From a virus: DNA of 34,216 bases. The translations under genes and the position numbers were made by a program. The stretch covers positions 1 to 34,216 of IMG/VR virus record IMGVR_UViG_3300044637_000174. One strand, given 5' to 3'. Below are positions 19,973-24,605 of this stretch, piece after piece. Position 1 is the stretch's first letter. Each line of letters begins with the position of its first letter. The notes under the pieces were generated by a model. That model did no database searches and had not been told where the DNA came from. It was given only the letters and a program-made list of their open reading frames with translations.

Positions 19973-20467
19973 ATGAAAGTAGCATTATACCAAATAGAAC
20001 AGGAATATTTAAACATTGTACAATCTATAATAGATGCAGGTGGCGAAATAACAGAGGAGCAGGAAACTGCCCTCTCTATTTCTAAAGAACAATTACAAAA
20101 TAAAGGCGTTTGTTATGGCTTTATTGTAAAAGAATTAGAGGGCAATATAGATCTAATTGATTTAGAAATAAAGCGATTACAGGCATTAAAAAAACCTTTA
20201 GTTAATAGTATCGATAGACTTAAAAATAACCTATCACAAGCCATGCAAATGTTTGATGTAACGGAATTAAAAACACCGCTATTAAAGATTAACTTTAGAA
20301 AATCAGAATCTATTGAAGTTACAGATATTGACTTGCTAGATGCAGATTTTGTTAAAACAACTATAACTAAAGCAGCCGATAAAATAGCGATTAAAGAAGC
20401 TATTAAAAGTGGTGAAAATGTGCAGGGGGCTATTTTACAAACTAATTTAAACCTACAAATTAAGTAA
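19973..20467 (+). CDS. Gp157-like protein (164 aa)
   Basis: The layout fits the siphovirus Gp157 family: N-terminal helix with YQIEQEYLNIVQSI, EITEEQETALSISKEQLQNK, the coiled coil IVKELEGNIDLIDLEIKRLQALKKPLVNSIDRLKNNLSQAM (about 51-91), then the strand region TPLLKINFRKSESIEV. Members lie beside SSB and recombinase genes, as here; the biochemical role is not settled. Its last codons are part of a 28-bp direct repeat that brackets the next gene, and its stop overlaps the next ATG as TAATG. Confidence 0.65.
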   Translation: MKVALYQIEQEYLNIVQSIIDAGGEITEEQETALSISKEQLQNKGVCYGFIVKELEGNIDLIDLEIKRLQALKKPLVNSIDRLKNNLSQAMQMFDVTELKTPLLKINFRKSESIEVTDIDLLDADFVKTTITKAADKIAIKEAIKSGENVQGAILQTNLNLQIK

Positions 20468-20479
20468 TGGAAAAACCAA
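20452..20479 (+). repeat. 28-bp direct repeat, left copy
   Basis: It covers the last Gp157-like codons and the start of the 277-residue gene. It matches 21301-21328 at 27 of 28 bases (C versus T at the fifth base). Both copies include the ATGGAAAAACCAA start, so the proteins on both sides begin MEKP. The copies are 849 bases apart and bracket one gene exactly. Confidence 0.85.
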
Positions 20480-21300
20480 ATTTATTAGTTACATTTAGCG
20501 GAGGGGAGACCTCCGCTTTTATGGCGCAATGGCTTTTTAAACATAAAAATAATGAATATAACATGGTTTTTGTTTTCGCTAATACAGGACAGGAAAGTGA
20601 ACCTACATTAGAGTTTATAAACAATTGTGAGAATGAATTTGGTTTTAAAATTAATTGGATTGAATGTGTTGTAAATAAAGAAAAAGGTAAAGGCACTAGA
20701 CATAAAATAATAGATTTTAAATCAGCAAGTAGAAATGGCGAACCATTTGAAGATGTCATTAAAAAATACGGATTACCCACAACTAATTTTTTACATTGTA
20801 CAAGGGAGTTAAAATTATCCCCTGTTAAATCTTTCGCTAAAGAGTATTTTAACGGTCAAAAATACTTACTCGCATTAGGTATAAGGAGTGATGAATTTGA
20901 TAGAATGAATCCCAATTATAAAAAATTAGGTATTATTTACCCATTAATCCAAAAAGATTTTATTCCTGTTACAAAAAAACATATAAATTTTTATTGGAAA
21001 CAAATGCCGTTTAGATTAAACTTAAAAGGTTATCAAGGGAATTGTATAACCTGCTATAAAAAAAGCGATAAAAAGCTATTTCAAATAGCTAAAGAAACAC
21101 CATCGGCATTTGATTTTTTTAAAAGAATGGAGTTGTTATATAGCAAAGGTTATTCTATATTTAGAGGTTCTAGAAATGTTGAAGATATTTTAAGACAATC
21201 TAAAGAGTATAACGGAAAAGTTAACAACGACAACGAAGATTCAAATATACAATTAGACTTGTTAAATGACTCATGCGAGATATTTACGGAATGCAAATAA
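20467..21300 (+). CDS. PAPS-reductase-like N-type ATP pyrophosphatase, paralog 1 (277 aa)
   Basis: The ATP-binding P-loop SGGETS is at residues 11-16 (N-type PPi-synthetase / PAPS reductase fold). Further signature points: FANTGQE (37-43), CTREL at Cys111, LGIRSDEFDRM (137-147) and the pair NC-IT-C at Cys193/Cys196. It shares this motif order with the 235-residue protein at 21691. Family members activate a substrate with ATP for sulfur or other nucleophile chemistry; in phages they are suspected in DNA or RNA base modification. It is bracketed by 28-bp direct repeats, suggesting acquisition as a single-gene cassette. Confidence 0.7.
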   Translation: MEKPNLLVTFSGGETSAFMAQWLFKHKNNEYNMVFVFANTGQESEPTLEFINNCENEFGFKINWIECVVNKEKGKGTRHKIIDFKSASRNGEPFEDVIKKYGLPTTNFLHCTRELKLSPVKSFAKEYFNGQKYLLALGIRSDEFDRMNPNYKKLGIIYPLIQKDFIPVTKKHINFYWKQMPFRLNLKGYQGNCITCYKKSDKKLFQIAKETPSAFDFFKRMELLYSKGYSIFRGSRNVEDILRQSKEYNGKVNNDNEDSNIQLDLLNDSCEIFTECK

Positions 21301-21445: not shown

Positions 21446-21694
21446 ATGGAAATGATATACTTAATACTTAGCCAGTTTACATTTAGTTTTAGTAGAACTT
21501 TAAATGTAAGATATACGGCAAAAGAAAACGTATTAATGGGTATTATAACATCTACATTAATAAAATTAACATGGCTTGTTAGTAGCTCAATAGGTGTAAA
21601 ATCTGTTATTGATGGCGATGTAAAAATGTGTATTGCTTATGTAATAAGCGGATTAATTGGTGATTATTTATCTTATAAAATAAAAATAAAATGA
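21446..21694 (+). CDS. Small two-span membrane protein (82 aa)
   Basis: MEMIYLILSQFTFSFSRTLNVRY, then a hydrophobic stretch (VLMGIITSTLIKLTWLVSSSIGV, about 29-51) and a second (MCIAYVISGLIGDYLSY, about 61-77), ending in KIKIK. It overlaps the following PAPS-reductase-like gene by ATGA, so the two are likely translated together. It may anchor or regulate the modification enzymes, or be unrelated to them. Family unknown to me. Confidence 0.5.
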   Translation: MEMIYLILSQFTFSFSRTLNVRYTAKENVLMGIITSTLIKLTWLVSSSIGVKSVIDGDVKMCIAYVISGLIGDYLSYKIKIK

Positions 21695-22398
21695 AAGAAA
21701 CAATAGCAGTTTGGTTTAGTTGCGGAGTTGCAAGTGCAGTAGCAGCTAAAAAAACTATTGAAAAGTATGGTGAAACTCATAATATTTTAATAGTAAACAA
21801 CCCAGTTAAAAACGAGCATCCTGATAATTTAAGATTTTTAGCTGATGTTGAAACTTGGTTAGGACAAAAGATTATTAAAGCCACTAATGATAAATACCCA
21901 AATGCTGATATTATAGAGGTATTTGATAAGGTTAAATATATTAGTGGTGTTGCAGGTGCGCCTTGCACAAGGGAATTAAAAAAGGAAGCGAGATACCAAT
22001 TTGAAAAGAAAAATAAAATTGACTGGCACGTTTTAGGGTTTACCATTGATGAATGGGAAAGGCAAAAAAGATTTAATACAGGCGAAAGAGGAAATACAAT
22101 ACCTGTGCTAATTGCTGAATTATTAACTAAACAAGATTGCTTTAAAATAGTTGAAAAGGCTGGGATTAAATTGCCTTTAATTTATTCGCTTGGTTATCCA
22201 AATGCTAATTGTATCGGGTGTGTAAAATCGCAAAGTCCTACTTATTGGAATTTAGTTAGAAAAACTTTTCCAGATGTGTTTGAAGAGCGTGCAATACAGA
22301 GCAGAAGAATAGGTTGTAAACTTGTTAAATTAAAAGGTAAAAGAATTTACTTAGATGAATTATTAGAAACTGATAAAGGCGGTAAAATTAAAAGCTAG
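21691..22398 (+). CDS. PAPS-reductase-like N-type ATP pyrophosphatase, paralog 2 (235 aa)
   Basis: The P-loop is SCGVAS (10-15), with Cys in place of the second Gly of SGGxxS. CTRELK follows at Cys92, LGFTIDEWERQKRF at about 115-128 and ANCIGCVKSQ with Cys174/Cys177, the same motif order as paralog 1 at 20467. The C-terminus is Lys/Gly-rich. Co-occurrence of two diverged copies suggests two steps or two substrates in one pathway. It is joined to the membrane protein gene by ATGA. Substrate cannot be read from sequence. Confidence 0.65.
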   Translation: MKETIAVWFSCGVASAVAAKKTIEKYGETHNILIVNNPVKNEHPDNLRFLADVETWLGQKIIKATNDKYPNADIIEVFDKVKYISGVAGAPCTRELKKEARYQFEKKNKIDWHVLGFTIDEWERQKRFNTGERGNTIPVLIAELLTKQDCFKIVEKAGIKLPLIYSLGYPNANCIGCVKSQSPTYWNLVRKTFPDVFEERAIQSRRIGCKLVKLKGKRIYLDELLETDKGGKIKS

Positions 22399-22743: not shown

Positions 22744-22766
22744 CCACAATAACCCTATATTTGTGG
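22744..22766. terminator. Weak stem-loop between convergent genes
   Basis: CCACAA (22744-22749) pairs with TTGTGG (22761-22766) around an 11-base loop. It straddles the end of the leftward 117-residue gene and lies 12 bases after the rightward gene stop. No T-tract on the right; a weak terminator at best. Confidence 0.3.
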
Positions 22767-23108
22767 TTCATTATCAACATCGGGAATAGGCAGACTTTCA
22801 TAATATTCATTTAACTTTGAATAAATAACTTCTGGTCTGCCGGGTGAATAAACCAAATCGCCATTCTCAAATACTATCTCGGTGTAATATTTCTTATTAG
22901 TTTTACCTTTAGGAATAAACACCTTTGGGTTTAATTGCGTAATTGTATTTCGAGATAAACAAAAGTAACCAATAGTTGTTTCGTAGTCATCTAATAAACC
23001 TTCGTTTAAAAGCCTTATTTTATCAAGTTCATCTATTTCCTCATCCGTATTAAAAGCTGAGTTTATAGGGTGAATTATTGATATTGAGAACCATTGTAGA
23101 CTATCCAT
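22755..23108 (-). CDS. Hypothetical protein (117 aa), leftward operon
   Basis: Starts MDSLQWFSISIIHPINSAFN, then an acidic segment, and a beta-like second half with NPKVFIPKGKTNKKYYTEIVF and YSPGRPEVI. No membrane segments. Its ATG is 4 bases beyond the leftover phosphoesterase stop codon (23113), the same spacing as in the phosphoesterase-endonuclease pair, so it probably followed the phosphoesterase directly before the endonuclease arrived. Family unknown. Confidence 0.5.
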   Translation of the reverse strand: MDSLQWFSISIIHPINSAFNTDEEIDELDKIRLLNEGLLDDYETTIGYFCLSRNTITQLNPKVFIPKGKTNKKYYTEIVFENGDLVYSPGRPEVIYSKLNEYYESLPIPDVDNEPQI

Positions 23109-23112
23109 TGTA

Positions 23113-23139
23113 TTAAAATTTATGTGTTAATCTCATTAT
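23113..23139 (-). repeat. Presumed native 3' end of the phosphoesterase gene, left behind by the insertion
   Basis: On the minus strand this 27-base stretch encodes IMRLTHKF-stop using the AT-rich codons AGA, TTA, ACA and TTT. It repeats the end of the phosphoesterase gene (23544-23570) with 6 differences, all synonymous. It lies partly inside the endonuclease 3' end in another frame; the last codons of the endonuclease (NEINT-stop) are made from it. Confidence 0.8.
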
Positions 23140-23539
23140 TTTTTAAGTATTCAATTGCACTACTTAGTATTTTTACGTCGTCGTTAAGTAGCCCTATTCC
23201 CCTATTACATTTATCACATAACAAACCCCTTATTTTTTTTGTTTCGTGGCAATGGTCAACACATAAACTCTTTTTATGTTTATTATTTAATTGAGAAATA
23301 TGTTTATTACAGATTTTACAACAACCTTTTTGTTCTAAAAACATTTCTTCATATTGTTTTAAATCAATACCATAAGCTCTTTTTAAATCATAATCCTTCA
23401 TTACTTTAGAATCATATTTATTTCTCATTTTTTTATTATGGCAATCTTTACAATATGGTTGAGTTCCTGAAGTTCTATTACTTCTTTTAACAAATTCAAT
23501 AATTTGTTTTTCTTTATTACATAAATTACAAGTTTTCAT
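23120..23539 (-). CDS. Endonuclease VII-type HNH homing nuclease (139 aa)
   Basis: The N-terminal zinc site is Cys4-Cys7 with Cys30-Cys33. The catalytic part has KGCCKIC (73-77), CVDHCHET (93-100; Asp95, His96, His98) and LLCDKCNRGIGLLNDD (107-121; Cys108, Cys111, Asn112), the recombination endonuclease VII / His-Me finger pattern. In phages such genes are often free-standing mobile elements. This one lies between the phosphoesterase and the 117-residue gene, duplicates the phosphoesterase 3' end, and takes its own stop from the displaced native tail. Confidence 0.8.
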   Translation of the reverse strand: MKTCNLCNKEKQIIEFVKRSNRTSGTQPYCKDCHNKKMRNKYDSKVMKDYDLKRAYGIDLKQYEEMFLEQKGCCKICNKHISQLNNKHKKSLCVDHCHETKKIRGLLCDKCNRGIGLLNDDVKILSSAIEYLKNNEINT

Positions 23540-23543
23540 AGCC

Positions 23544-23570
23544 TTAGAATTTATGGGTGAGCCGCATTAT
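23544..23570 (-). repeat. Recoded 3' end of the phosphoesterase gene
   Basis: It encodes residues 346-353 (IMRLTHKF) and stop. Compared with 23113-23139, CGG replaces AGA, CTC replaces TTA, ACC replaces ACA and TTC replaces TTT. Every difference is a C or G here against A or T there, and none changes the protein. Confidence 0.8.
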
Positions 23571-24605
23571 CTGACCATATACTGGGTGGTGAAGGTATGC
23601 TTCTATTGCTTTTGATGAGTGTTGATACCCTTGTTTGTGATGCCAACTATCCGTTCCCGATGGGCTACGTGAGCTTTCAACTGTTATTCCGATATAATCT
23701 TTTGATGTTTTATGGTGTACGTGGTGAGTATAAATATAACGGTGTTTTGTATTAGCCCATTCTTTTTTAAACTCCTGAGCCATCAATAATGGCAAATCTT
23801 GATTCTTAGCACCATCACCATGAGTTGAGCCAATTAGGTTATCTCCATAAACAAACGCTTTACGGTGGCTTATTGATGTATCAAAAGTTATATTTTTACT
23901 TAGTTTAAACCACGCTTGTATAGTTTGGGCTAAATACCACCCAGCCATATAATCATGATTTGATGGATTGTGTATTATGTGAACGTCTGCAATACCAACA
24001 AGTTTTTCAATAATTTGAACATATAACTTTTGAGCAACTAAAAAGTTTTCAAACCACATTCCATCCGTATCTTGTGGAGTTCCGCTTGTTGTACTTCGTT
24101 TTGTATTATCGGTGTGTAAAATATCGTTACCAATAATCAAAACTATCTTATCAATATTGAATGATTCAAGTCTTTGAATTATTTTATCTATTCCTTCATG
24201 TACTCTTTTAACTGCTATATTTGAATTGTAATTATCGCCTGATTCATATTCGGTTGCTAGTTTACCTATGTGTATATCTGCCGGATCTATAACTAAACAA
24301 TGGCAGTCTTTTAATTTAGTTCTTTTAATTACAGGATATTTAGGTGAATGTTTATCCATATCCTTAATAATATTTGCTTTTAAATCTTCTAAACTTTTTT
24401 CTTTAGGCTTTGCAAATATTGAGAATAACTCACTTTTGTACCAATAATGTTTTACTTCGTTGGGGTCTATTCCTGCTGCATGACATTCTTCGTCAAGTTT
24501 AGATTTTTGGGTCCTATATTTCATTAGCAAACTTTCTTCGTCGTCGGTAAGTCTGTATCTAACATTATTGTTTAGTTCCGCTTTACCTACATTAGATTTT
24601 GCCAT
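23544..24605 (-). CDS. Calcineurin-like metallophosphoesterase (353 aa)
   Basis: Metal-site motifs in order: DPADIHIG (Asp110, His112), IIGNDIL (Asn160, Asp161), PSNHDY (Asn216, His217), GSTHGD (His262) and THHVHH (His295, His297). This fits the metallo-dependent phosphatase fold, as in phage DNA-repair phosphoesterases. Residues 1-60 form an HTH-like helical extension (DDEESLLMKYRTQKS...). The last eight residues, IMRLTHKF, use GC-rich codons (CGG, CTC, ACC, TTC) unlike the rest and unlike the copy at 23113. It heads the leftward operon, behind a -7 box overlapping the RusA promoter. Confidence 0.75.
   Translation of the reverse strand: MAKSNVGKAELNNNVRYRLTDDEESLLMKYRTQKSKLDEECHAAGIDPNEVKHYWYKSELFSIFAKPKEKSLEDLKANIIKDMDKHSPKYPVIKRTKLKDCHCLVIDPADIHIGKLATEYESGDNYNSNIAVKRVHEGIDKIIQRLESFNIDKIVLIIGNDILHTDNTKRSTTSGTPQDTDGMWFENFLVAQKLYVQIIEKLVGIADVHIIHNPSNHDYMAGWYLAQTIQAWFKLSKNITFDTSISHRKAFVYGDNLIGSTHGDGAKNQDLPLLMAQEFKKEWANTKHRYIYTHHVHHKTSKDYIGITVESSRSPSGTDSWHHKQGYQHSSKAIEAYLHHPVYGQIMRLTHKF

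Follow-up and report, generated by a model that had tools for sequence, protein, structure and literature searches.

A probable homing element in phage DNA that carries a foreign gene end together with an EndoVII-family endonuclease

The phosphoesterase locus and its endonuclease

The locus studied lies in a viral DNA sequence of 34,216 nucleotides (nt), IMG/VR record IMGVR_UViG_3300044637_000174, referred to below as the window. On the minus strand, a phosphoesterase (PE) gene is followed by 4 nt, a gene for an endonuclease of the endonuclease VII (EndoVII) type, a second copy of the PE gene end, another 4 nt and a gene encoding a protein of 117 amino acids of unknown function. The origin of this doubled gene end is the subject of the present report.

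The PE gene (24605-23544, 353 amino acids) ends in IMRLTHKF and a stop codon. This octapeptide and its stop are encoded by two 27-mers, ATAATGCGGCTCACCCATAAATTCTAA (23570-23544) in the expressed gene and ATAATGAGATTAACACATAAATTTTAA (23139-23113) behind the endonuclease gene, the latter being untranslated as PE. The 27-mers differ at six bases, all six synonymous, with C or G in the expressed copy and A or T in the leftover one, which is followed by TACA and then, at 23108, by the ATG of the 117-amino-acid gene (22755..23108). An earlier note, made from the letters of this DNA alone, had described both copies of the octapeptide, at 23544 and 23113, as well as the base differences and the 4-base gap, and comparison of the 27-mers and the junction confirmed each of these observations exactly. 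A second identical copy of the last eight residues plus stop was found for 1 of the 123 open reading frame (ORF) ends in the window (ORFs of at least 50 codons), that of the PE gene, and it was positioned exactly at the boundary of the endonuclease gene; a chance repeat was therefore rejected. A megablast search with 18 kb of the window matched no phage record.

The endonuclease gene (23539-23120, 139 amino acids) matched Pfam family PF02945 (E=8.7e-20) and PHROG 2633 (E=1.4e-40). In an alignment that included F-CphI (A1), the catalytic or binding residues D95, H96, R104 and N112 and the zinc cysteines C74, C77, C108 and C111 were invariant. Judged by these key residues, the protein is an intact member of the EndoVII/F-CphI family. 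Its aligned homologues end at a conserved YL(K) motif plus 0-6 residues, whereas in the window the frame continues past this motif through NNEINT. The final codons (23120..23139), NEINT and a stop, are read from ATAATGAGATTAACACATAA within the displaced PE tail in another frame, and the stop codon itself (23122-23120) lies inside the leftover copy. On the evidence of this alignment, the endonuclease gene has no stop codon of its own and borrows one from the displaced tail, which bears out the earlier note. The gene is optional beside a conserved gene, since a related contig, L005, has the PE and 117-amino-acid genes without it. No Rfam match to a group I intron was found in the window element, and the PE gene is intact before the endonuclease gene. 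As an optional gene with no surrounding intron or intein, it is classed as a free-standing (intronless) endonuclease gene.

Relatives of the phosphoesterase locus

Both copies of the gene end were found around the same endonuclease in five further IMG/VR contigs (L002, L003, L004, L006 and L046). The copies are identical in all five contigs, and no drift was seen. L002 and L004 are 100% identical to the window from the middle of the PE gene (its 3' half) through the endonuclease gene and the junction, while in the later part of the downstream gene identity drops to 75-83% per 60-nt bin. An identical block beside a diverging downstream gene is consistent with a recent transfer of that block into a different background. 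No second PE end was found in L008, whose PE gene is distantly related and has an EndoVII gene 104 nt downstream.

The sole close relative without the endonuclease was L005, in which the PE and 117-amino-acid genes adjoin each other directly. Its PE gene differs from that of the window at 2.8% of nucleotides in the body and at 25% in the last 84 nt. The resident part of the window gene (23629..24605), which belongs to a calcineurin-like DNA-repair-exonuclease family (PHROG 704), has 97% nucleotide identity to L005. The synonymous codon difference rises from 7% in this body to 63% in the end tract (23544..23628, including the stop codon), and 27 of the 28 residues in the tract are unchanged. 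The left edge of the replaced tract is abrupt, with the boundary located between 23655 and 23628. Thus, the 27 bases to which the earlier note had confined the alteration hold for the comparison of the two copies, but the stretch altered relative to L005 is about 85 nt long (23628-23544).

In some related contigs, a different metallophosphoesterase (PF00149/phrog_221; for example, L056:5016-5999) replaces PE (phrog_704) upstream of the 117-amino-acid gene. L005 has the window-type PE gene, but its 117-amino-acid gene is preceded by a remnant of some 25 nt from the end of the other lineage's gene.

The survey of EndoVII loci and the portal genes

To score repeated gene ends, 118 EndoVII loci with an upstream gene on the same strand were surveyed, with 2950 swapped-tail controls and a threshold score of at least 35. 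This score was reached by 7 of the 118 loci compared with 4 of the 2950 controls. The seven were the window, L161, L185, L092, L178, L154 and L150.

In L161 and L185, one EndoVII element was found in two different alleles of a portal gene. Both portal proteins end in nearly the same tail, QQVPPELQ plus one residue. Over the last 22 compared codons, the two genes show a synonymous difference of 5%, as against approximately 45% in the body, and the two endonucleases are 89% identical in amino acid sequence. Past the end of each endonuclease, the reading frame continues into another portal tail that differs from the first. Element-free genes for comparison were obtained by searching for portal relatives. 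L236 and L291 have the same protein tail as that behind the L185 endonuclease, with two base differences in the tail, and L250 has exactly the tail that lies behind the L161 endonuclease; in all of them, the downstream DNA matches as well. The element-free site in L236 consists of GAGCCGCCGCCGCAGCC and its flanks.

Comparison of L161 with L250 showed approximately 98% identity until roughly 250 nt before the portal stop codon, approximately 55% in the carried tail and 100% from the end of the endonuclease onward, over the aligned stretch. L185 and L236 displayed the same pattern, with breakpoints at corresponding places. The carried and displaced portal tails differ in amino acids too, with 38-40 of 72 residues identical. 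Because both pairs match outside and diverge in the carried tail, the inserted unit can be identified from the alignments as the carried tail plus the stop-less endonuclease, and the displaced portal tail as native. These filled and empty pairs, an independent and cleaner case than the PE locus, provide what we consider decisive support for an architecture in which the gene end is replaced.

The remaining high scorers involved other genes. In L092, the upstream gene encodes an exonuclease with a Cas4 domain, and the two ends are IRTGCPDNWLPI and IRKGCDLWLPI, each followed by a stop. In L178, it encodes the major head protein, with the ends KILRAEAIVTARVNIA and KILRPEAIVTARVNIA, again each with a stop; this second copy of the capsid tail lies behind the EndoVII gene. 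A group I intron (Rfam RF00028, 72 bits) was detected at L178:2695-2934, between the end of the major head protein gene and the EndoVII gene. L154 has a 30-residue repeated end in a gene of unknown function, and in L150 the repeat is of low complexity and lies 216 nt downstream. L145, also with a gene of unknown function (KTFRKISKKK and KTFKAIAKKNKK, each with a stop), is a weaker case because its ends are lysine-rich and its score was 32. Most EndoVII genes, those of T7-like phages included, have no repeated gene end, and the architecture is therefore that of a minority.

High scores of L132 and L180 were rejected because the genes upstream and downstream are paralogues of each other. These flanking genes are paralogous over at least 37 residues and may be a recombination target. 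Among 15 annotated phage loci, no clear new case was found. In the cultured Acinetobacter phage Phab24 (L305:2330-2960), the DNA polymerase ends in WYNCH and the following EndoVII ORF in KYQCH, a possible displaced tail of four residues that was too short to count. A later genome scan added bacterial loci and no new high-scoring case.

Origin of the gene end and comparison with known systems

The arrangement in the window is very probably that of a mobile homing element that carries a foreign end of its target gene along with an endonuclease gene with a borrowed stop codon. The element would comprise approximately 490 base pairs (roughly 23628-23140), beginning with the foreign last 28 or so codons of PE and continuing at once with the free-standing, stop-less endonuclease gene. 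In a mixed infection, the endonuclease would cut an uninvaded PE gene close to its 3' end, presumably in the region of the ATA ATG codons, some 27 nt upstream of the last base of the stop codon. On the left of the break, the DNA would be trimmed and repaired with the invaded copy as template, and would thereby acquire both the foreign end of PE and the gene for the endonuclease. On the right, the DNA from the cut onward would pair with the native tail that was displaced to a position behind the endonuclease and is retained in all invaded copies; this tail would thus provide the right-hand homology arm in the next round of transfer. With the reading frame restored by the imported end, the target protein would stay whole. 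The imported end differs at the presumed cut site and would resist cleavage; the new copy has plausibly lost the site at which the endonuclease would cut.

The native type of the leftover copy is supported by the 17-mer ACACATAAATTTTAATA, which it has in common with the native PE end of L047, a PE relative with 78% amino acid identity. Several observations weigh against this interpretation. The end of the L005 gene has a third spelling that differs from each of the two copies at 4 of 24 coding bases. Its PE gene also ends one codon later, and its downstream spacer and junction are different and common to another gene lineage. Since neither 27-mer is matched, the stop lies one codon later and the spacer differs, L005 is not a clean empty site. 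The earlier note had predicted an empty site identical to 23113-23139; none was found among the relatives of the window, of which L005 is the only close one without the endonuclease, and its view of the leftover copy as the native end is favoured by L047 but not by L005. No donor was identified for the tract of about 28 codons. Among the surveyed loci, L145 and L154 are single contigs with small genes, and L178 also holds a group I intron.

A variant of this interpretation concerns the origin of the end, which may have been recoded by selection inside the element, as a synonymous escape from its own endonuclease, instead of being imported. The retention of 27 of 28 residues while 63% of synonymous codons differ would agree with such recoding, and the window/L005 pair is the most extreme among pairs with at least 95% amino acid identity. 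However, other pairs in the PE family reach a synonymous difference of 55% at 94% amino acid identity, and in the portal tails amino acids differ as well. For these two reasons, import of a diverged allele suffices, and purpose-made recoding as the only explanation was rejected because of the similar divergence of the other pairs; we regard recoding by selection as unlikely, though it retains some weight. The earlier note had proposed that the element carries a recoded replacement end that keeps the target protein whole. The replacement end and the whole protein are supported by the same architecture in portal genes with element-free relatives, but for deliberate recoding an imported diverged allele fits at least as well. 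Restated as the import of a foreign gene end, the proposal is right in its core and partly supported.

An alternative judged improbable is that recombination has a hotspot at the PE end, as the boundary of a gene swap seen in L005, and that the endonuclease is a bystander. The swapping of two unlike phosphoesterase genes at this locus and the scrap of the other type kept in L005 would be in line with such a hotspot, but it would leave unexplained both the repeated octapeptide with the endonuclease reading into it and the recurrence of this anatomy at genes for portal, exonuclease and capsid proteins. Slightly less probable still is intronless homing into the space between the genes, with the final 27 nt of PE doubled afterwards by local slippage and the two copies then drifting apart. 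Such homing by free-standing endonucleases with flank co-conversion is well known in T4-like phages (PMC2988022). However, the expressed end departs from L005 in a tract of about 85 nt that has a sharp boundary, and not merely in 27 nt, the five other contigs show no drift, and in the portal cases it is the displaced tail, not the expressed one, that equals the element-free allele; simple tandem duplication was rejected on account of the 85-nt tract and the portal pairs. That the endonuclease lies inside a self-splicing intron, with the second octapeptide as a spliced 3' exon, has a negligible probability, for although L178 has a group I intron between gene end and EndoVII gene, the window element has no Rfam match and its PE gene is complete with its stop merely 4 nt before the endonuclease gene.

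The import of a foreign gene end resembles the mobile ORF elements (mORFs) of fungal mitochondria, known from Allomyces atp6 and from Glomus atp6, atp9, cox2 and nad3 (PMC3630166). In these, the insertion comprises an endonuclease gene and a foreign version of the sequence for the target protein's carboxy terminus, so that a hybrid gene is formed in frame, and the native end stays downstream and matches element-free relatives; the protein ends are 94-100% identical and the DNA is 64-81% identical, with mostly synonymous divergence (PMC3630166). Likewise, the expressed 3' end of the phage target gene is a foreign version (63% versus 7% synonymous difference in PE, and the portal pairs). The displaced end matches element-free relatives in the portal genes, while in the window it shares only 17 nt with L047 and differs from L005 at 4 of 24 bases. 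Unlike the mORFs, which are mitochondrial and of the LAGLIDADG or GIY-YIG type, the elements described here lie in phage DNA and have an EndoVII fold, and their endonuclease takes its stop from the native tail. Membership in the fungal mORF lineage was rejected because of this fold and the viral record.

F-CphI of cyanophage S-PM2 is an experimentally proven EndoVII-type homing endonuclease beside psbA, where a group I intron in psbA protects the resident copy in "collaborative homing" (PMC6083498). The window endonuclease is homologous to it, with the same family and catalytic motif, and is likewise a free-standing gene adjoining its target gene, but protection would be given by the substituted gene end and not by an intron. 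In intronless homing in T4-like phages (SegF, SegG, MobE and others), a free-standing endonuclease gene lies beside a conserved gene, with flank co-conversion and overlap with the upstream gene (PMC2988022), and the proposed element shares these features. In contrast to those systems, the displaced native end is kept and the replacement end is portable; the word duplication is absent from that review (PMC2988022). In the engineered home-and-rescue drive HomeR, the target is the 3' end of the coding sequence of an essential gene, and a re-coded 3' end is carried with the drive (PMC7968924). The likeness is one of design logic and is meant as an analogy only, HomeR being a synthetic system of Cas9 and guide RNA in Drosophila.

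No phage report of an endonuclease architecture that replaces a gene end was found in the open-access literature, subscription literature being outside the search, and novelty is therefore provisional. We lean towards the broader view that gene drives built on EndoVII homing endonucleases recur in phages as a class, in which a stop-less endonuclease travels with the 3' end of a core gene (for a replication exonuclease, the portal or the major capsid protein) in a portable form that resists cutting, and C-termini are swapped between phages as in a natural home-and-rescue drive. The proposed element would explain how a core phage gene can take up an endonuclease in its coding end unharmed, with neither an intron nor an intein: the endonuclease brings that end along. 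An architecture known from fungal mitochondria would be extended to phages, where the nuclease has a different fold and several target genes are unrelated to one another, and recoded-rescue gene drives would have a natural counterpart. The junctions are candidate cut sites that can be tested directly. Part of the unusual variation at the C-termini of phage proteins, the portal protein among them, may be element-borne, and annotators should expect endonuclease ORFs that run on into displaced tails of portal or other genes.

Elsewhere in the window, two PAPS-reductase-like genes (phrog_424; 20467-21300 and 21691-22398) lie next to the PE cluster, which is on the minus strand, and are themselves encoded on the plus strand.
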